NCBI GenBank assembly: GCA_002070755.1
Contig: MWDY01000294.1
Coordinates: forward strand, 1 to 23,205
Length of the DNA stretch: 23,205 nucleotides
Source: Spirochaetes bacterium ADurb.Bin110
GTDB lineage: Bacteria; Spirochaetota; Spirochaetia; Treponematales; Rectinemataceae
Reading direction: 5' to 3'
Shown: piece by piece, positions 1,835 to 16,952 of the stretch
Numbering within the stretch: the first letter of the stretch is position 1
Layout: each line of letters opens with the position of its first letter
Notes under the pieces: generated by a model
What the model saw: the letters and a program-made list of their open reading frames with translations, nothing else
Told to the model about the DNA's origin: nothing
Databases searched by the model: none
Made by a program: the position numbers and the translations under genes

Positions 1835-3628
1835 ATGGTAAACTTAAAAATCAATGGAATACCGGTTCAGGTTGCAGAGGGTTCGACTATTCTGGAAGCT
1901 GCAAAAAAGGCACATGTAAAGATTCCGACGCTTTGTTATAACCCAGATCTTTCTCCTTGGGCCGCTTGCGGCATATGTGTGGTAAAGGTCGAAGGATCTA
2001 ACAAAATGTTGCGATCCTGCTGCACGCCCGTTTCCGAAGGCATGAGCATAATCACCAATGATCCAGAGCTTGTGCAGACGCGCAGAACCGTGATAGAGCT
2101 CATTCTCTCTACACATCCCGACGATTGTCTCGCATGCCCGCGCAATCAGGCTTGCGAATTACAGACTCTCGCTCAGGAATTCGGCATAAGAGAACAGCCC
2201 TTTAAAAAATTGGTGCGCGATCTTCCCCTGGATACATCCACTGGCAGCCTCATTCTCAATCCTTCTAAATGTGTGCGTTGCGGTCGATGTGTAGAAGTAT
2301 GTCAGGAAATGCAAGGCGTCTGGGCTGTAGAGTTCTTAGGACGCGGAGAGTCTATCCGCATAGCTCCAGCGGCAGATGTCAAGCTAGGCGAAAGCCCTTG
2401 TATCAAGTGTGGTCAATGTTCGGCACATTGCCCGGTCGGCGCAATCTATGAAAACGATCAGACAAGTCTCATTTGGGACGCCCTTATGAAGGAAGGGCCG
2501 GATGCAAAGACCTGTGTTGTGCAAATTGCTCCAGCGGTTCGCGTTGCTCTTGGAGAAGCCTTCGGCTTGCCGCCAGGGACAGAACTGACTGGCAAGATCT
2601 ATACAGCGCTTCGTCGCCTTGGTTTCGATGCGGTCTTCGATACAAACTTTTCGGCCGACCTCACCATAATGGAGGAAGGCACCGAATTTGTTCATAGACT
2701 GACCGCGGCGCTTAAAGGTGGCGAGGATGGAATTTTGCAGGCGACAATCGATAGAAGCTTGCCGCTCATCACTTCCTGTTGTCCAGCTTGGGTAGATTAC
2801 ATGGAGAAATACTATCCCGATATGATTCCAAATTTCTCTACGGCCAAGAGTCCGCAGCAGATGATGGGCGCAATGATAAAAACCTATTGGGCAGCCAAGG
2901 CAAATGTAGATCCAGCCAAGATTTACTCTGTCTCCATAATGCCTTGTACCGCCAAGAAATTCGAGAATAGCCGCGATGAGCATATGTTCTCCTCAGGATA
3001 TCAGGATGTCGATGTCTCTATAACCACAAGAGAGTTGGCGCGCATGATAAAGCAGGCGGGTATCGATTTCCTAGAACTGCCTGATTCAGAGCCAGATAGC
3101 CCATTGGGCCCCTATTCTGGTGCAGGAGCCATCTTCGGAGCTACCGGCGGAGTCATGGAAGCTGCGCTTAGAACGGCTCATTTCCTTGTTACGGGAAAGG
3201 AGCTCGAGGAAGTCGAGTTTACCGCGGTGCGCGGCCTATCTGGTATAAAGGAAGCCACTGTTCACATCGACAACATCGAGCTGCGTGTGGCTGCAGCGCA
3301 TCAGATGGGCAATATCGCCACGGTTTTGGAACAGGTCCGCAAGGCTAGGGCAGAAGGCCGCGAGACCCCATGGCACTTCATAGAAGTTATGGCTTGCAGA
3401 GGTGGCTGTATCGGCGGCGGCGGTCAGCCCTATGGAGCCAATGATGAAGTGAGAAAGCTTCGCATGCGGGGTATCTACGATCACGATGAAGAATGTGAGT
3501 ACAGATGCTCTCATAATAACCCATTCATAAAGCAGGTGTATGAAGAGTTTCTGGAGAAACCTGGAAGCCACAAAGCCCATGAGCTTCTGCACACCAAATA
3601 CAAGGAAAGGCCCCTCTATTTGAAATGA
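1835..3628 (+). CDS. hydA: [FeFe]-hydrogenase catalytic subunit HydA
   Basis: A 597-aa cytoplasmic [FeFe]-hydrogenase that interconverts protons and H2. The N-terminal [2Fe-2S] domain has C34, C45, C48 and C62 or C63. It is followed by the His-Cys [4Fe-4S] site (H94, C98, C101, C107) and a two-cluster ferredoxin domain (C146, C149, C152, C156; C189, C192, C195, C199). The H-cluster motifs are complete: L1 TSCCPAW (C315, C316), L2 MPCTAKKFE (C371) and L3 EVMACRGGCIGGGGQP (C521, C525). C315 is the proton-relay cysteine of prototypical group A enzymes, so this is not a sensory-type hydrogenase. The small-subunit domain follows at the C-terminus. The protein ends there, without the additional C-terminal [2Fe-2S] domain known in Thermotoga maritima HydA (family knowledge). 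It is co-transcribed with hydB (18-nt gap, GGGAG upstream) and followed by a strong terminator. Maturation genes hydE, hydF and hydG are not in the window. Confidence 0.96.
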   Translation: MVNLKINGIPVQVAEGSTILEAAKKAHVKIPTLCYNPDLSPWAACGICVVKVEGSNKMLRSCCTPVSEGMSIITNDPELVQTRRTVIELILSTHPDDCLACPRNQACELQTLAQEFGIREQPFKKLVRDLPLDTSTGSLILNPSKCVRCGRCVEVCQEMQGVWAVEFLGRGESIRIAPAADVKLGESPCIKCGQCSAHCPVGAIYENDQTSLIWDALMKEGPDAKTCVVQIAPAVRVALGEAFGLPPGTELTGKIYTALRRLGFDAVFDTNFSADLTIMEEGTEFVHRLTAALKGGEDGILQATIDRSLPLITSCCPAWVDYMEKYYPDMIPNFSTAKSPQQMMGAMIKTYWAAKANVDPAKIYSVSIMPCTAKKFENSRDEHMFSSGYQDVDVSITTRELARMIKQAGIDFLELPDSEPDSPLGPYSGAGAIFGATGGVMEAALRTAHFLVTGKELEEVEFTAVRGLSGIKEATVHIDNIELRVAAAHQMGNIATVLEQVRKARAEGRETPWHFIEVMACRGGCIGGGGQPYGANDEVRKLRMRGIYDHDEECEYRCSHNNPFIKQVYEEFLEKPGSHKAHELLHTKYKERPLYLK

Positions 3629-9938: not shown

Positions 9939-12014
9939 TCAACCCCACACTGTTTTTAGAACAGGAGCAAGCACGAGCGAAATAACCGCCATCAATTTTA
10001 TCAGAATATTCAGAGAAGGGCCGGCTGTATCCTTGAAGGGATCGCCTACGGTATCTCCCACTACGGCGGCGCGATGGGCGCTAGTTCCCTTGCCTTCTTC
10101 ACTTCGTGATTCTATGAGCTTCTTGGCATTGTCCCAAGCTCCACCCGCATTCGACATGAATATGGCAAGAAGGCCTCCAGAAACCGTGGCGCCAACCAAT
10201 AATCCGGTAAGTACGGCAGGCCCACCGATGAAGCCAGTCAATACAGGCGCAGCTATGGCCGAAAGACCCGGCAGTATCATGCTCTTCAAGGCTGTCTGTG
10301 TAGAAATGTCGATACAGCTTCGGTAGTCTGGTTCATCGGTTCCTTCTAGAATACCAGGTTTTGCGCGGAACTGTTTTCTTACCTCCTCTATCATCGCAAA
10401 TGCAGCTCGATAGATTGCATCCATGGCCAATGAGCTGAAAAAGAAGGGAATCATTCCGCCAATAAAAAGACCAATGAGCACACTGGGATTTGCAAGGTTC
10501 ATCATTTCTACTGGTAAACCTGTAGCGCTCAAAAAGGCAACGATAAGGATGAGCGAAGTAAGAAGCGCCGATCCTATGGCAAAGCCTTTGCCAATGGCTG
10601 CTGTCGTATTGCCGACGGCGTCGAGCGAATCTGTGATTCTTCGTACTTCTGGTTCCATTTCTGCCATCTCCGCAAGACCTCCTGCATTATCCGCAACAGG
10701 GCCGTATGCATCGACAGAGAGCTGTATTCCGAGTGTCAGCAGCATTCCAAGGCCAGCGATCCCTATACCATAGAGCCCTGCAAGCCAGTTTGAGATCCCA
10801 ATGGCGAGCCCAATGACCAGAATAGGAAATACCGTGGAAATCATGCCGACGCCCAAGCCAGAAATGATCGTGGTTGCAGCGCCAGTTGTGCAGGATTTTG
10901 CTATTTTTCGAACTGGAGGAGAATCCGAGCCAGTGTAGTATTCGGTAATGAGGCCAATTGCCGTACCTGCCACCAAGCCTGTTATGCATGCAAGATAGAC
11001 CCCAATCCACCCTGCCTCTCTCGACCCAATCGAAAAACGGCCATCTCCGACAACTAAGCGAATTACTGGAATCAAAAGGACTATGGCTATTATAGATGCT
11101 CCTATAGAACCGGCATTGAGCGCATTCTGAGGGTGTTTGGCTCGGCTTAGGTGAACAAAGAGCGTTCCGATGAGCGAAGCCACCACTCCAGTCCCTGCGG
11201 CAATTAGCGGCAATATAGCTAATCTTTGCTGAAGTTCTGGGCTAGCTGAAATCGCAAGGCCAAGCACCATACAGCCAACTATAGATCCTGCATACGATTC
11301 AAAAAGATCCGCTCCCATGCCAGCGACATCGCCCACATTATCGCCAACATTATCTGCAATGACGGCTGGGTTTCGGTGGTCATCTTCGGGTATACCGACC
11401 TCGACCTTGCCTACGAGGTCGGCGCCAACATCTGCGGCTTTGGTGTAAATGCCGCCGCCAACGCGTGCAAAAAGAGCCATCATAGAGGCTCCTAGCGAAA
11501 ATCCCGATACAATTGGGAATATTGTTTGAGCAAGTATTTGCTCTGCATCTGGCATAAGAAGAAGGAGCCCTAGGATAGCCCCTATCCCCAATAGCACAAG
11601 CCCTACCACTGTCATGCCCATAACCGAACCACTCGAAAACGCAATTCTTAGCGCAGGCAGGACACCTTTCTCTGCAGCCTCCGCCGTCCTAGCATTGGCC
11701 TTGACTGCTATGCCCATACCGAACCAGCCCGATAGGGCGGACAGAACTGAGCCAACGAGAAAAGAAACAGCTTGCAATTTGAGAGCGCCATTGTTGAGAC
11801 AAAGAAGAAGAATAGCAACCACTGGAATGATAAAGCTCACTGCTTTATATTCCCTAACGAGGAAAGCATGGGCTCCTTCCTCGATATAGCCAGAAATTCG
11901 CATTACTGTAGGGTTGGAAAGAGGTATCTTTTTGATTTTTGAGCTCGTAATCAAGGAATACCCCAGCGCTGCCAGGGCTGCTATGATTGCAACGAATACT
12001 CCACTCGAGAGCAT
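9939..12014 (-). CDS. hppA: Membrane-bound ion-pumping pyrophosphatase, K+-dependent type
   Basis: A 691-aa integral membrane protein with about 16 helices that couples pyrophosphate hydrolysis to ion transport across the inner membrane. Signature blocks are present: [43 protein letters not shown] and [27 protein letters not shown] (from 468) has alanine at the position that is lysine in K+-independent enzymes, so it should need K+. The helix-6 glutamate lies in [10 protein letters not shown] (E239), the position found in Na+-PPases and Na+,H+-PPases (equivalent to E246 in Thermotoga), not the plant-type H+ position. The pumped ion is therefore uncertain. An ATG exists at 12029, but AGGAGG lies inside that extension six bases before the ATG at 12014, so 12014 is chosen. 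Confidence 0.95.
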
Positions 12015-12059
12015 CGGCGACCTCCTCATTGCGAAAAGCCAAATTGTGCTTTACGTTTC

Positions 12060-12250: not shown

Positions 12251-12280
12251 TTGACAAAAATAGCGATTTGTATTTTTATT
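12251..12280 (+). promoter_or_regulatory. Candidate promoter of the arg operon
   Basis: A perfect -35 TTGACA (12251-12256) is followed by an AT-rich stretch with TTTATT (12275-12280, 18-nt spacer, 4 of 6) as the best -10. Transcription would start near 12287, giving a leader RNA of about 200 nt before argC. That leader contains the leader-peptide ORF. Confidence 0.42.
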
Positions 12281-12308
12281 GAAACACTTTTCTTTTTGGG
12301 AGGGGCAC

Positions 12309-12419
12309 ATGGAATGCTCACTTCTCATACCTATCTTCTCACCATCTCTGAGAACTCTGCGAAGAACCTTTCTTGCATTCCATTCCCGTCGTCTTCATCT
12401 ATTCTGCTATCGTCGTTGA
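12309..12419 (+). CDS. Arginine-rich leader peptide upstream of argC (candidate attenuator)
   Basis: A 36-codon ORF beginning ATG GAA TGC TCA and ending with CGT CGT TGA, preceded by GGGAGGGG (12298-12305), a strong Shine-Dalgarno with GGAGG 5 nt from the ATG. The peptide starts MECSLLIPIF and has seven arginines (R15, R18, R19, R27, R28, R35, R36). Three of these are Arg-Arg pairs, and the last two codons before the stop are both CGT. The stop lies 68 nt before the argC start. A small hairpin begins 5 nt after the stop. The start region ATGGAATGC (12309-12317) is exactly complementary to GCATTCCAT (12375-12383) further along the ORF. High Arg content directly before an arginine biosynthesis operon suggests ribosome-stalling control. 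Nothing beyond sequence supports translation, and the pyrimidine-rich composition could generate such a frame by chance. Confidence 0.5.
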   Translation: MECSLLIPIFSPSLRTLRRTFLAFHSRRLHLFCYRR

Positions 12420-12424
12420 CAATC

Positions 12425-12443
12425 TTGCACTTTATACGTGCAA
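12425..12443 (+). promoter_or_regulatory. Small hairpin after the leader-peptide stop
   Basis: TTGCAC (12425-12430) pairs with GTGCAA (12438-12443) across a 7-nt loop, followed by TTT and a pyrimidine-rich stretch. A ribosome paused on the final Arg codons (12411-12416) would cover the 5' arm, so it is placed as an attenuator hairpin would be. The six-pair stem and short T tract make it weak as an intrinsic terminator. Confidence 0.33.
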
Positions 12444-12487
12444 TTTACCTCATTTCTCATTACACTTGTTATTGAAAGGAGATGCCC

Positions 12488-13537
12488 GTGATTCATGTGG
12501 GTATATTAGGGGCCACCGGCTATGCTGGGCTCGAGCTGACCCGAATCCTCTTGCAGCATCTAGAAGTAGCAGCATTGAGCGCTTCATCTGTGAGCTTTGA
12601 AGGCAAAAGACTCGAAGAGGTCTACCCATCGATGATAAACCTTCAGACAGATGTGGCGCTTCCAATGCTCGAAAAAGCCGAGGATGTTATATGCAAAGCC
12701 GATGTTGTTTTCTCTTGCTTACCGCATGGGCATGCGGAGGAAGCAGGTCAACAGTGCCTTGAAGCATCGAAGCCTTTCATCGATATCTCTGCTGATTTTA
12801 GGTTTGGAATCCATGAGAATATATTCGAAAAATGGTATGGTTCACCGTATAAATATCCAAAACTGCATGAGTATGCGATATATGGTCTACCGGAGCTAAA
12901 GCGTAAGGCGATCAAATCCGCGATTCTTATCGCAAACCCAGGATGCTACCCTACCTCTGCGGAGCTAGGCCTTATGCCTGCTATTCAGGAAGGCCTTGTG
13001 GATATTTCTAGTATCGTGATCACTTCGATGTCGGGAGTGACTGGGGCAGGTCGCGAACCGAGTCAAACAACGCATTATCCAGAAGCAGCGGATGCCGCTT
13101 CACCCTATAAAGTCGGATCTCATAGGCATCAGCCCGAAATTGATCTTTTGCTCTCTGAGATGGCCGGAGAGCAAGTGCAGAGCGTATTCACTCCGATCCT
13201 CGCTCCCATGAATCGAGGTATTGTGAGCACGATCTGCTTTCGACTTTTGCGTGCGGTTTCGGATGAGGAGCTTCATTCGATCTATATAGAGCACTATGCT
13301 GACGAGCCTTTCGTGCGTGTACTGCCGCTTGGTAGCACGGCTTCGAATCGCTTTGTCAGATTCTCGAACTATTGCGATATCTCGGTTCACCTATCTGCGG
13401 ATAAGGAGCGAGCCGTCATAATCTCTACTATTGATAATATGGTAAAAGGTGCGGCTGGTCAGGCCGTTCAGAATATGAATATTCTCCTGGGCTTCGAGGA
13501 AACAGAAGGGCTCAGGTTCATTCCACCTGCATTCTAG
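12488..13537 (+). CDS. argC: N-acetyl-gamma-glutamyl-phosphate reductase
   Basis: A 349-aa enzyme reducing N-acetylglutamyl phosphate to the semialdehyde with NADPH, the third step of ornithine/arginine synthesis. The N-terminal Rossmann motif is GILGATGYAG. The catalytic cysteine is C153 in ANPGCYPTSAELGL, and GSHRHQPEI carries the conserved histidine. An ATG occurs at 12482, but AAAGGAG (12475-12481) directly abuts it, leaving no spacing. The in-frame GTG at 12488 has the Shine-Dalgarno six bases upstream and gives the usual N-terminus (VIHVGILGATG), so it is preferred. It is the first gene of argC-argJ-argB-argD, with argJ following after 14 nt. The long leader with an Arg-rich peptide suggests attenuation by arginine supply. 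Confidence 0.95.
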   Translation: MIHVGILGATGYAGLELTRILLQHLEVAALSASSVSFEGKRLEEVYPSMINLQTDVALPMLEKAEDVICKADVVFSCLPHGHAEEAGQQCLEASKPFIDISADFRFGIHENIFEKWYGSPYKYPKLHEYAIYGLPELKRKAIKSAILIANPGCYPTSAELGLMPAIQEGLVDISSIVITSMSGVTGAGREPSQTTHYPEAADAASPYKVGSHRHQPEIDLLLSEMAGEQVQSVFTPILAPMNRGIVSTICFRLLRAVSDEELHSIYIEHYADEPFVRVLPLGSTASNRFVRFSNYCDISVHLSADKERAVIISTIDNMVKGAAGQAVQNMNILLGFEETEGLRFIPPAF

Positions 13538-13551
13538 GCAAGGAGGGTGTG

Positions 13552-14769
13552 ATGAAACAAAGTCGGGGCGGCGTAACTGCCGCAAAAGGATTCCTAGCTT
13601 CTGGCGTTCATGTCGGAATTCGCAAAAACAAGGAAAAGAAGGATCTAGCCCTGATATGGTCGGAAGTGCCCTGTGCGGCTGCAGCCGTCTACACGACGAA
13701 TAGGGTAAAGGGTCAGACTCTTATAGTTACTCAGGAACACCTGGCAGATGGTCGCGCTCAGGCGATAATTGTCAACTCGGGTAACGCAAACACCTGTACC
13801 GGAGAAGAAGGTCTAAAAGCCGCGCGGCGCATGGCGGAGCTTGTATCCCAGTATCTTCCAGTCAAGACCGAAGACGTGGTCGTAGCCTCTACCGGTGTCA
13901 TTGGCCAACAGCTCGACGTCTCGGTTATCGAAGCAGGCATGCCCGATCTAGTAAAAGGCCTTTCCAAGGGCGGTTCGATAGATGCCAGAGAGGCAATCAT
14001 GACGACCGATACAATGAAAAAGGAAATTGCGGTCATCGAAGAACTCGATGGCGTACCGGTTACCATAGGCGCTATGGCCAAAGGTTCCGGCATGATCCAC
14101 CCAAACATGGCAACCATGCTCTGCTTTATTACGACAGACTGTGCTATTGCGGAACCTCTTCTTCAGAAAGCGCTCAAGGAAGTCGTCCGGGTTAGCTTCA
14201 ACCGTGTCAGTGTAGATGGCGATACTTCCACTAACGATATGGTCGTAATCCTTGCCAATGGCAAAGCCAACAATGCGTATATCGACAAAGAAGATGACAA
14301 CTACAGCGATTTTCGCGATGCCCTCCAATTCGTCTGTGTGGAACTAGCTAAGATGGTAGCTCGCGACGGAGAAGGCGCAACCAGGCTTATAGAGTGCACG
14401 GTGGGTGGGGCAGTATCCGAAGAACAGGCCGAATCCCTTGCAAAAGGCATAATCACATCGAGCCTCGTAAAAACCGCAATGTTCGGTGCGGATGCGAACT
14501 GGGGCAGAATTCTATGCGCAATGGGTTACACACGCAGCGATTTCAATCCAGACAAGGTGGATATCTCTTTCGAGAGCCCTAGAGGCTATATCGAAGTCTG
14601 CAAGGGGGGTGCGCCTTTGCCTTTCAGTGAAGAAAGAGCCAAGAAAATCCTCAATAATCAAGAAGTAGAAATTATCGTGGATCTGCATTTGGGAGAGGCT
14701 GAGGTAACGGCATGGGGCTGCGATCTTTCTTATGAATATGTGCGAATCAATGGCGATTATCGTACATAA
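13552..14769 (+). CDS. argJ: Bifunctional ornithine acetyltransferase / N-acetylglutamate synthase
   Basis: A 405-aa protein that moves the acetyl group from N-acetylornithine to glutamate, which closes the acetyl cycle and makes a separate argE unnecessary. It contains the self-cleavage motif KGSGMIHPNMATMLCF, with cleavage expected before T188, which becomes the nucleophile of the beta chain. A GTG lies at 13549, but AGGAGG (13541-13546) is 5 nt before ATG 13552, so the ATG is chosen. Whether it also uses acetyl-CoA (bifunctional) or only acetylornithine cannot be settled by reading. No argA-like gene is in the window. It lies between argC and a 111-nt gap before argB. Confidence 0.95.
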   Translation: MKQSRGGVTAAKGFLASGVHVGIRKNKEKKDLALIWSEVPCAAAAVYTTNRVKGQTLIVTQEHLADGRAQAIIVNSGNANTCTGEEGLKAARRMAELVSQYLPVKTEDVVVASTGVIGQQLDVSVIEAGMPDLVKGLSKGGSIDAREAIMTTDTMKKEIAVIEELDGVPVTIGAMAKGSGMIHPNMATMLCFITTDCAIAEPLLQKALKEVVRVSFNRVSVDGDTSTNDMVVILANGKANNAYIDKEDDNYSDFRDALQFVCVELAKMVARDGEGATRLIECTVGGAVSEEQAESLAKGIITSSLVKTAMFGADANWGRILCAMGYTRSDFNPDKVDISFESPRGYIEVCKGGAPLPFSEERAKKILNNQEVEIIVDLHLGEAEVTAWGCDLSYEYVRINGDYRT

Positions 14770-14795
14770 TAACAGCAAGGCTATACTGCCTTTGC

Positions 14796-14855
14796 GTCGC
14801 CCTTAGATAAATAGAAGTGATACTTTTTGTTATGTTCGAGTCGACCTTAGATAAA
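14796..14855. repeat. Pair of 16-nt direct repeats upstream of argB
   Basis: GTCGCCCTTAGATAAA (14796-14811) and GTCGACCTTAGATAAA (14840-14855) differ at one base and are spaced 44 nt start to start in the 111-nt argJ-argB gap. The gap is unusually long for this otherwise tight operon. The repeats could bind a regulator of an internal argB promoter. A related sequence, TAGATAAGATA on the minus strand, occurs at about 17152-17163 upstream of the MFS gene. Confidence 0.55.
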
Positions 14856-14880
14856 GATATGATTACAGACGAGGTGCTTT

Positions 14881-15741
14881 ATGGATAAACATTTCAATGC
14901 GGATGTCTTGATAGAGGCTCTGCCTTATCTGCGAAGATTCTGTGGCAAGATAATCGTAATAAAATACGGCGGTGCAGCCATGATCAATGAAGGCGTGCGC
15001 CAGACCGTGATTCAGGACCTTATTCTCATGCAGCAGGTGGGAATGAAACCAGTCCTAGTGCATGGAGGCGGGCCAGAGATAGATCGAATGCTAAAAAAAC
15101 TAAACAAAGAGCCAATATTTGTAGATGGCCTGCGCTACACAGATGACGAGACCATGGAGATAGTTCAAATGGTCCTTGCTGGCAAAGTAAACAAAGACCT
15201 CATCGAGCTCTTTTCGCGCATGGGTGGCAAGGCGATGGGAATCTGCGGTGCAGATGGTGGACTCTTCATGGCAAAGCGCATGCGAAAAAATGGACAGGAT
15301 CTCGGCCTTGTAGGCGACATCCAAGAAGTCAAAACCGAGGCTATCCGAATGCTATTGGACAATGGCATCATACCGGTTGTAGCGAGCCTTGCCCTTAAAG
15401 CGGATGAAGGGAGCGGATTCTATAATATAAATGCGGATACCGCGGCTGGAGCTCTAGCTATAGCACTCAAAGCTGAAAAACTAATTCTGCTTACCGACGT
15501 TCCGGGCGTTATGGAAGATAGGGCAGACCTCGGCACTCTAATCCGCGAAATGGATGTGGAGATGGCCAAGACACTCATGAAAAAGGGTGTAATAAAAGCT
15601 GGAATGATCCCCAAGGTCGAAGGTTGCCTCCAGGCTCTTGTCCAAGGCGTAACTGCAGCGCATATTGTCGATGGCCGTTCTCCACATTCTCTTTTGGTAG
15701 AATTATTCACTGATACCGGAATGGGGACAATGATAAGATGA
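14881..15741 (+). CDS. argB: N-acetylglutamate kinase, arginine-sensitive type
   Basis: A 286-aa amino-acid kinase that phosphorylates N-acetylglutamate with ATP, the committed step of the pathway. The nucleotide/substrate loops IVIKYGGAAM (about 25-34) and VLVHGGGPEI (about 58-67) are present, with conserved lysines further on. An N-terminal helix of about 20 residues precedes the first strand. The C-terminus has the block VDGRSPHSLLVELFTDTGMG. Both features mark hexameric, arginine-inhibited NAGKs such as those of Thermotoga and Pseudomonas (family knowledge), unlike the shorter arginine-insensitive E. coli enzyme. The start is ATG 14881 with GAGGTG about 5 nt upstream. Its stop overlaps the argD start by ATGA, so translational coupling is likely. 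Confidence 0.95.
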   Translation: MDKHFNADVLIEALPYLRRFCGKIIVIKYGGAAMINEGVRQTVIQDLILMQQVGMKPVLVHGGGPEIDRMLKKLNKEPIFVDGLRYTDDETMEIVQMVLAGKVNKDLIELFSRMGGKAMGICGADGGLFMAKRMRKNGQDLGLVGDIQEVKTEAIRMLLDNGIIPVVASLALKADEGSGFYNINADTAAGALAIALKAEKLILLTDVPGVMEDRADLGTLIREMDVEMAKTLMKKGVIKAGMIPKVEGCLQALVQGVTAAHIVDGRSPHSLLVELFTDTGMGTMIR

Positions 15742-16952
15742 AAAACATATTAAAGAATAAAGCGCCTATTAAGGATGCAAGGATGAACGACAGATTCATG
15801 AACACCTACACGCGGACCGGCCTTGTGCTGGATCATGGGGCTGGCGCGCGGCTTTTTGCTACCGATGGAAACGAATATATCGATTTTATGGCGGGAATCG
15901 GGGTAAGCTCGCTGGGGCACGGGCATCCGAAGCTCGTTTCAGCAATAGCGGAACAAGCATCAAAGCTAATCCATGTGTCGAATTATTTTATTACCGAGCC
16001 GTCGATAAAACTCGCTCAAGAGCTCACGGATGCAACCGGCTATGACAAGGTTTTTTTCTGCAATTCAGGAGCCGAAGCGAATGAGGGTATGTTCAAGCTT
16101 GCCCGCAAATATGGCTCAACAAAGAACCCAGACAAGAATATCATTGTAACTCTCAAACAATCCTTCCATGGGCGGACGATAACCACTATCACGGCTACCG
16201 GACAGGACAAATTTCATAAATACTTCGGACCTTTTACGCCAGGTTTTGTGTATGCCGAGCCAGATAACATAGAAGAGCTCGACAAACTGCTTGAACCGAA
16301 TGTGTGCGCCTTTGTGTTCGAGCCAATTCAAGGCGAAGGCGGGGTACGAATGATTTCGCAGGCGTATCTAAGGGCAGCCCAGGAGATGTGCCGCGAGCGG
16401 GATATCTTGTTCTGTGCGGATGAGGTGCAGACGGGGATGGGCAGAACGGGGGCGATCCTGGCCTGCGAGCGGCTGGGACTAAAGCCAGATGTCAGTGCGA
16501 TTGCCAAAGGGCTTGCTGGCGGCGTACCGATCGGCGCTTTCCTTGCGCGAGGAGATGCGGCCGAAGTGTTACAGCCTGGCGATCATGGCACAACCTTCGG
16601 CGGCGGCCCACTTGCGGCATCTGCGGCTCTCATTGTGCTATCGGAGCTCACAAGACCAGGTTTCCTCGACGAAATCGACCGCAAGGGCCGCCGCCTCAGA
16701 TCGCTCATAGAAAGCTTCAATCATCCAATAGTCAAAGATGTGCGCGGCATGGGGCTTATGATCGGGGTGGGCGTAAAAGTCGATCCTCATGAGGTCGTCA
16801 GCGCAGCCCAGGCTCACCACCTTCTCGTTCTAACAGCTGGAGATGATACCGTGAGGCTTTTGCCACCCTTGGTACTAACAGACAAAGATATCGAAGAGGG
16901 CGCCGCTGCGTTAAAGCTTGCGCTAGATGATGTGGAGAAGCTGCGGAAATAG
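15738..16952 (+). CDS. argD: Acetylornithine aminotransferase
   Basis: A 404-aa class III PLP-dependent aminotransferase making N-acetylornithine from the semialdehyde and glutamate. The PLP lysine is K257 in AIAKGLAGGVPIG, the pyridine-N aspartate is D228 in CADEVQTGMGRTG, and NSGAEANE (109-116) binds the phosphate. The first ATG overlaps the argB stop (ATGA). A second in-frame ATG at 15783 (MNDRFMNTYTRTG) also fits the family N-terminus and has AAGG nearby, so the first 15 residues are uncertain. The operon's arginine genes end here; argF, argG and argH must lie elsewhere. The 264-nt stretch before the next gene (16953-17216) shows no further gene and no convincing terminator. Confidence 0.95.
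   Translation: MKNILKNKAPIKDARMNDRFMNTYTRTGLVLDHGAGARLFATDGNEYIDFMAGIGVSSLGHGHPKLVSAIAEQASKLIHVSNYFITEPSIKLAQELTDATGYDKVFFCNSGAEANEGMFKLARKYGSTKNPDKNIIVTLKQSFHGRTITTITATGQDKFHKYFGPFTPGFVYAEPDNIEELDKLLEPNVCAFVFEPIQGEGGVRMISQAYLRAAQEMCRERDILFCADEVQTGMGRTGAILACERLGLKPDVSAIAKGLAGGVPIGAFLARGDAAEVLQPGDHGTTFGGGPLAASAALIVLSELTRPGFLDEIDRKGRRLRSLIESFNHPIVKDVRGMGLMIGVGVKVDPHEVVSAAQAHHLLVLTAGDDTVRLLPPLVLTDKDIEEGAAALKLALDDVEKLRK

Follow-up and report, generated by a model that had tools for sequence, protein, structure and literature searches.

Arginine-codon leader reading frames ahead of argC and argG in a family of spirochaetes as putative attenuators

The DNA analysed here (the window) is a stretch of 23,205 nucleotides, comprising positions 1 to 23,205 of contig MWDY01000294.1 from Spirochaetes bacterium ADurb.Bin110. 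The element in question is a short open reading frame (ORF) in the leader of argC, the first gene of an argC-argJ-argB-argD operon, which is preceded by a strong Shine-Dalgarno (SD) sequence and closes with two arginine codons. Comparable leaders were found ahead of argC throughout most of the family, and a second kind of leader with an arginine-rich end was found ahead of argG. On the evidence of sequence comparison, the argC leader is very probably an arginine-codon attenuator. The features of the locus are listed below; ArgR is the arginine repressor, and the clades are defined further on.

12251..12256, forward strand: TTGACA, -35 element of a presumed promoter for argC, from sequence comparison
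12269..12282, forward strand: ArgR-box-like palindrome TGTATTTTTATTGA over the -10 element, with one mismatch to TGNATWWWWATNCA
12274..12279, forward strand: putative weak -10 element TTTTAT, 17 nt from the -35 element, read from the sequence
12298..12305, forward strand: leader SD GGGAGGGG, with GGAGG ending 5 nt before the ATG
12309..12419, forward strand: leader ORF of 36 codons plus TGA, by direct reading; same length in 9/9 clade-1 sequences
12309..12459, forward strand: C-rich, G-poor stretch resembling a Rho utilization (rut) site by composition, at the 99.6th percentile of windows from the surrounding DNA
12411..12416, forward strand: terminal CGT CGT (R35-R36), the presumed arginine-sensing codons, directly before the stop
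12425..12443, forward strand: small hairpin TTGCAC-N7-GTGCAA, starting 5 nt past the stop of the leader; shared in this form by close relatives only
12474..12481, forward strand: argC SD GAAAGGAG, unchanged in 9/9 clade-1 sequences
12488..13537, forward strand: argC, first gene of argC-argJ-argB-argD, with Semialdhyde_dh domains
13549..14769, forward strand: argJ (PF01960, ArgJ)
14881..15741, forward strand: argB by position, an amino acid kinase (PF00696)
15738..16952, forward strand: argD by position, a class-III aminotransferase (PF00202)

The original prediction, made from the window alone, had described a 36-codon ORF with a strong SD and Arg-Arg pairs, and each of these was confirmed in its place. 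The encoded peptide, MECSLLIPIFSPSLRTLRRTFLAFHSRRLHLFCYRR, contains seven arginines (R15, R18-R19, R27-R28 and R35-R36), and 68 nt separate its stop codon from the start of argC. Four leader peptides were compared with Pfam and matched no family up to E 1, DUF2618 (SpeFL/orf34) included, in a search where such short peptides may miss weak matches; the phage collection searched with the leader gave no match either. The window had no Rfam match at gathering score, the only match between 12050 and 12700 being to a snoRNA (E 1.7) and far below that score, and by this comparison the leader does not belong to the T-box or to another known class of cis-acting RNA.

Conservation was assessed in 30 genomes of the family, 23 of which contained a full-length argC; with the window, this gave 24 upstream regions. 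These were grouped into clades 1 to 3 by ArgC identity, and the ArgC tree agreed with the grouping except for L091, which was placed beside clade 1. A leader ORF with an SD was present in 22 of the 24 regions: all nine in clade 1 (36 codons), all eight in clade 2 (29-30 codons) and five of seven in clade 3 (35-46 codons). The leader SD was GGGAGGGGC in 9/9 clade-1 sequences and GGGAGGAGC in 8/8 clade-2 sequences. Leaders ended in RR-stop in clade 1, in RR- or RK-stop in clade 2 and in RR-, RRP- or LR-stop in clade 3. The last place was arginine in 19 of 22 leaders and the second-last in 21. A strict rule, set after a first look at the sequences, demanded an SD core, an ATG, 15-50 codons and R or K at both of the last two residues. 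It was satisfied by 20 of the 24 family regions, while dinucleotide shuffles of the same 24 yielded a total of 0.01; among 71 argC upstream regions from bacteria outside the family, it was satisfied by none.

The ratio of nonsynonymous to synonymous differences (pN/pS) was 0.50 for the clade-1 leader ORFs, and 0.43 and 0.68 for two subgroups of clade 2. An alignment of relatives, suggested as a check when the leader was first described, showed that start, SD and terminal arginines were kept and that the middle varied. To judge from these comparisons, the frame is kept and most of the peptide is free, while constraint falls on the start, the SD and the arginine end. The idea of an arginine attenuator-type leader peptide was therefore supported by the family leaders, as a control additional to ArgR. 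That idea had been considered vulnerable to relatives that keep argC and lose the ORF or its arginine codons; such a loss was not seen in the 22 family regions, but was seen in two others (L099 and L100) and in 62 of 66 argC regions from elsewhere in the order. Codon choice at the arginine end was also skewed. CGT supplied 61 of the 119 arginine codons within the last six places of 40 argC and argG leaders, compared with a background of 12-14% taken from the longest frames at these loci (720, 442 and 887 arginine codons), which is a small and rough reference.

The second leader was found ahead of argG in 18 of the 23 family genomes with readable upstream DNA. It has 10-34 codons, lies 35-126 nt from argG and is unlike the argC leader in sequence; its start codons were picked by hand. 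RLR occurred within the last nine residues in 18/18 and the exact ending RLRRR-stop in 7/18. Counted back from the stop, arginine occupied places 3 and 5 in 17 leaders, place 1 in 13 and place 2 in 12, and the bases CTCCGT were present near the end of 17. The leader of G019 has only 10 codons (MKMHSRLRRR), with the start and the arginine end kept. A DNA motif, CGCCTCCGTMGNMGNTRA, was matched at 10 places in 9 of the 30 family genomes and its reversed control at none; eight of these places were just upstream of argG, one (L206) was leader-like at a contig end and one (L204) was taken as chance. Genome G025, which contains L206, was excluded from the argG leader count because argG could not be seen behind the leader.

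In six clade-1 argG leaders (L115, L117, L119, L122, L135 and L202), the ATG lies 6-7 nt past a -10 element, which is TATATT in five and TATTCT in L115. Given this spacing, the transcript probably begins at the leader ATG, that is, it is leaderless. A comparable arrangement was observed in L114, L118, L134 and L120, where the ATG of argG itself stands a few bases past the -10 element, at the position of the leader ATG in relatives; argG may be read from a leaderless transcript in these genomes (G029, G027, G028 and G009, respectively).

Other genes of arginine supply served as controls. The strict rule was satisfied by 0/26 argF and 0/15 carA upstream regions; 20 carA loci had been listed, five of them without a start where expected, and one argF locus (L168) was left out. 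A looser rule returned two unlike ORFs at argF (L144 and L161) and one ORF of 11 codons at carA, in G017 (L210). The latter, MRNPAGRRVSR, has an SD-like motif and ends 66 nt before carA, and none of the other carA regions scanned showed it. At several argF loci (L153-L157, L163, L164 and L166), AT-rich palindromes resembling ArgR boxes, often in pairs, were noted by eye upstream of the gene, with no leader ORF alongside. For trpE, inspection of 5/6 upstream regions (one start doubtful) listed neither a Trp-rich leader nor an SD-led arginine leader.

Base composition distinguished the argC leader from its surroundings. The ORF in the window is 31% C and 13% G, and the 40 nt past its stop are 28% C and 8% G; averaged over the argC leaders, the ORF is 38% C and 18% G, and the next 40 nt are 36% C and 16% G. 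When the excess of C over G was ranked against windows of the same length nearby, 22/22 argC leaders reached at least the 99.6th percentile, and 18 of them outranked every other window. Using a fixed 150 nt upstream, C minus G reached at least the 95th percentile in 19/24 family argC regions, as against 4/24 for argF, 0/13 for carA and 0/71 for argC outside the family. Rho favours pyrimidine-rich, unstructured RNA, according to a study of toiL (PMC12121999). A rho gene was found in 27 of the 30 family genomes (25 over the cut-off), with no match in the 1.3 Mb examined from G001, the nearest relative of the window.

There was little sign of a terminator or of conserved folding. A simple rule that looked for a hairpin with a T run behind it, as far as 150 nt into the gene, found none in 40 leaders, and an intrinsic terminator scan of the window between 11900 and 12800 also found none. 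Whole leaders did not exceed their shuffles in structure (mean z -0.51 for 22 argC and -0.17 for 18 argG leaders). Since the leader is C-rich, G-poor and unstructured, and terminator-like hairpins were not found, Rho-dependent attenuation was preferred.

Two structural elements had been given a part in the original prediction, a hairpin at 12425-12443 and a pairing of CCTTTC (12367-12372) with GAAAGG in the argC SD (12474-12479); both are present in the window. The pairing was rejected as a mechanism because it is not conserved across clade 1: the full CCTTTC occurs in the window alone, and the other eight sequences have GCTTTC, CATTTC, CCCTCC, CCCTTC, CCCTTC, CGCTTC, CCCTCC and CGCTCC. The hairpin follows the stop in the window as described (-6.4 kcal/mol, z -3.1), but it is not conserved as the ORF is, and it was rejected as a general feature since it differs or is missing in other clades. 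It is strong in the window, L083 and L084, present in several clade-1 sequences and without counterpart in clade 3. Seven of eight clade-2 leaders (L091-L096 and L098) have instead a 4-bp stem, GGCG-N5-CGCC, directly after TAA, which could be a pause site for RNA polymerase. RNA folding, another proposed check, bore out the window's hairpin and some modelled opening of its argC SD, but not a general excess of structure in the leaders.

TTGACA, the presumed -35 element, was present in 9/9 clade-1, 8/8 clade-2 and 4/5 clade-3 sequences, the fifth clade-3 sequence having TTGACG, and TTGTATTTTTAT at the -10 position was unchanged across the nine clade-1 sequences. The promoter was not listed by a promoter scan because its -10 element lacks A at position 2. 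A palindrome resembling the ArgR box (consensus TGNATWWWWATNCA, fitted by eye) was found with at most one mismatch, and at most 110 nt from the leader ATG, in 19/22 family argC leaders (0.47 in shuffles); box-like palindromes accompanied 12/18 argG leaders (0.40 expected). An ArgR gene was found in 27/30 family genomes, with no match in the 1.3 Mb examined from G001. The boxes at the argC and argG promoters are predicted ArgR sites, and because both the genes and the boxes are present, the leader is probably a second control besides ArgR. Repressor and attenuator likewise both act on trp.

The leader region is flanked by a divergent gene resembling a membrane pyrophosphatase (9939-12029, reverse strand; named by reading) and by argC-argJ-argB-argD (12488-16952). 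The listed argC frame opens at ATG 12482, and because this codon has zero spacing from the argC SD, GTG 12488 appears to be the better start; the same position is ATG in 7/8 other clade-1 sequences. ArgC of the window shares 95% identity with the protein of Spirochaetaceae bacterium UBA8197 and 84% with the ArgC of two other spirochaete genomes. Several relatives are annotated as N-acetyl-gamma-glutamyl-phosphate reductase, and some of the more distant ones (P0057, P0077, P0104 and P0111) bear the name Rectinemataceae, on which ground the family is taken to be Rectinemataceae. Elsewhere in the window, two adjacent genes (29-1816 and 1835-3628) have translations that, on reading, resemble NADH-linked and iron-only hydrogenase subunits.

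Beyond the family, the strict rule was satisfied by three of 66 further argC regions from the order (L301, L305 and L326), and by reading L303 has a similar leader ending in RRRQA. Two regions (L329 and L351) had been dropped from this set as too short, and it shares some genomes with the non-family argC set. Among 68 argG regions from the order, which include a few genomes twice and omit L267 for want of upstream DNA, L294, L391 and L393 contain ORFs ending in RLRLRLRRR. An SD was detected in L294 only, the ORFs of L391 and L393 reaching the edge of the scanned stretch; four others (L386, L394, L248 and L259) were not scored as argG leaders, most having no SD and a sequence that is unlike. 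A search for the argG motif in 394 genomes of the class returned 18 matches, compared with 7 for the reversed control. Three of these were argG leaders (G041, G044 and G049); no arginine gene was seen behind the remaining 15, which were provisionally taken as chance. The shuffle expectations given above refer to the family sets.

On an ArgC tree of 57 chosen sequences, the 26 that bear a leader required 5 gains or losses, compared with 19.1 when labels were shuffled. L303, and L301 with L305, were basal in groups otherwise without a leader, and L406 (from G031, the same genome as L326) formed a long branch. This topology suits an old trait with losses, transfer being an alternative. Two related Treponema (L004 and L005, also L347 and L348) have a short, conserved ORF of the form M(R/K)IRSYTRMKRA(P/H)MTR ahead of argC, with a weak SD; it may be another kind of arginine leader or a chance ORF.

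A wider reading can be built on these distributions, namely an ancient, order-wide arginine attenuation that would combine unlike argC and argG leaders, an arginine end, Rho and, in one clade, a leaderless argG leader, all atop ArgR and lost in many Treponema. It is offered tentatively, as falling a little short of an even chance. The narrower interpretation, considered likely with some reserve, is that the ORF forms a leader-peptide attenuator of argCJBD, which would read charged arginyl-tRNA and work through Rho, with ArgR as an additional control; for the Rho step taken by itself, the chances are about even. The ORF would be translated from its strong SD and, given the promoter position, would share a transcript with argC. 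With ample arginine, the ribosome would pass the terminal arginine codons, terminate at the stop and depart; Rho could then load on the freed, C-rich and unstructured RNA at and after the end of the ORF and halt RNA polymerase before argC is translated. With arginine scarce, the ribosome would wait at the terminal arginine codons beside the stop, where it would cover the C-rich RNA and block the loading or passage of Rho, so that transcription would continue into argC. ArgR would act additionally at the promoter. We infer the stalling at arginine shortage, the role of Rho as terminator and the direction of the response from this arrangement. In this scheme, the signal is the arginine-codon end beside the stop in a C-rich leader, with its sister at argG, and not the hairpin or six-base pairing of the window.

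Several observations weigh against this scheme. Within the family, L099 and L100 have no clear argC leader, L099 offering only an Arg-rich ORF without an SD. The argG leader is absent from the four genomes in which argG itself has the promoter-proximal ATG (G029, G027, G028 and G009), and in G020, a close relative of the window, argG is preceded not by an RLR leader but by MNLCKSCIFDSAQR alone (translated by hand). An SD-like motif precedes just 7/18 argG leaders, and neither the leucine nor the CTCCGT of their ends is explained by tRNA charging alone. The preference for CGT could merely reflect a low G content. Base composition cannot prove rut sites, and the excess of C over G is weaker at argG, where 9/18 leaders reach the 95th percentile, mostly in clade 3; Rho therefore fits argC better than argG. 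Lastly, the scheme assigns no role to the small hairpin that follows the stop in clades 1 and 2.

Translational attenuation is an unlikely alternative, in which the leader would pair with the SD of argC or argG and a stalled ribosome would free the start, Rho being secondary as in toiL; toiL of E. coli does use translational attenuation (PMC12121999). The CTCC of the CTCCGT conserved at argG is complementary to GGAG in the argG SD, and this was the sole long-range pairing in the consensus folds of clades 1 and 3. However, it consists of four base pairs that hardly vary and so offer no covariation, the consensus fold for argG in clade 2 is empty, and clade 1 and 2 argC leaders have no terminal CTCCGT, though CCTCC occurs elsewhere in some. 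Folding with a ribosome placed on the terminal arginine codons raised SD access by at least 0.10 in 10 of 40 leaders, comprising 4/22 at argC (including the window, from 0.25 to 0.35) and 6/18 at argG, but the other 30 showed no such rise and three of them fell by at least that much (one of the 22 at argC); for L091 the script missed the SD. These models lend weak support to the idea that a ribosome on the arginine codons frees the SD. Arrest by the nascent peptide, whose Arg-rich end (RLRRR or RR) would itself cause stalling in response to arginine or to release, in the manner of the fungal arginine attenuator peptide or TnaC, is decidedly improbable. In its favour, the leucine before the final arginine run is kept with different codons (mostly CTC, with CTT in L125, L294, L391 and L393), and R/K-X-R/K motifs stall ribosomes in the presence of macrolides, as reported in the toiL paper (PMC12121999). 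Across clades, however, the argC leaders share only their last arginine residues, with no other common residue by reading, and an arrest triggered by high arginine would need to bring about repression, contrary to what TnaC does.

The locus has the same architecture as classical attenuators of the trp and his type, with a promoter, an SD and a short ORF containing runs of regulatory codons. Such attenuation requires an intrinsic terminator and an antiterminator, and the negative outcome of the simple terminator scans described above, in the 40 leaders and in the window, together with folding no stronger than in shuffles, makes it very improbable. A small protein with its own function, or an ORF due to chance, is the most improbable explanation: pN/pS within clades leaves room for some constraint on the peptide, but sequence and length (29-46 residues) differ between clades while start, SD and arginine end stay, different peptides with an arginine end recur at argG, and the shuffles gave almost none. 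The arginine-codon attenuator remains the preferred reading of the argC leader.

That attenuator has partial counterparts among known systems. In the orf34 leader of speF in Salmonella, consecutive arginine codons sense arginine, the gene downstream is arginine-related and termination in the leader depends on Rho, all as observed or proposed at argC (PMC6386406). Unlike the argC leader, orf34 has its sensing pair at codons 12-13 and a last arginine codon without a role; speF also serves to convert ornithine to putrescine, and much of its response runs through mRNA stability (PMC6386406). In Staphylococcus aureus, rbfL is a short leader ORF that ends in arginine codons (MVLKYRKR) and senses arginine shortage, but its frame runs into the SD of the gene behind it and its stalling represses a biofilm regulator (PMC13009471), whereas the argC leader stops 68 nt short of argC and stalling there should activate biosynthesis. 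The toiL leader of E. coli resembles the scheme proposed for argC in that a ribosome stalled in the ORF lifts Rho-dependent termination, the rut lying in the 5' region, and differs in sensing antibiotics through a hairpin that sequesters the SD (PMC12121999). The carA leader peptide of Pseudomonas aeruginosa precedes a gene that serves arginine as well as pyrimidine synthesis, but its attenuation is tied to pyrimidines (PMC4997734).

Three further systems offer comparisons. TnaC of E. coli, which with SpeFL and mgtL belongs to the Rho-dependent leaders, is a short ORF that ends at a Rho loading site, and a held ribosome permits transcription; there, free tryptophan and a specific peptide hold the ribosome, unlike the arginine codons and biosynthetic gene of the argC leader. 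The trp and his attenuators share leader ORFs rich in codons for their own amino acid, but have the intrinsic terminator and antiterminator that were not found at argC. The fungal arginine attenuator peptide is likewise an upstream ORF controlling an arginine gene, yet it belongs to another domain of life and acts on translation, through the peptide, at high arginine.

Control of arginine biosynthesis by a repressor, ArgR, is the textbook account in bacteria, and attenuation has classically been described for Trp, His, Leu, Ile/Val, Thr and Phe. Searches of the open-access literature turned up no bacterial argC or argG with a leader peptide, although earlier work on arg regulation published behind subscription may describe one. 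If the interpretation is true, these would be the first cases of leader-peptide control of argC or argG in a bacterium, within the literature searched. As terminator hairpins were not found, they would provide a test case for Rho-dependent, codon-sensing attenuators, which genome searches based on terminators would miss. Each clade supplies natural variants of the leader, down to the 10 codons at argG, that could be tested directly with reporters. For the family itself, leaders with arginine codons at two arginine operons, besides ArgR, suggest that arginine supply is sensed in a second way, through charged tRNA.

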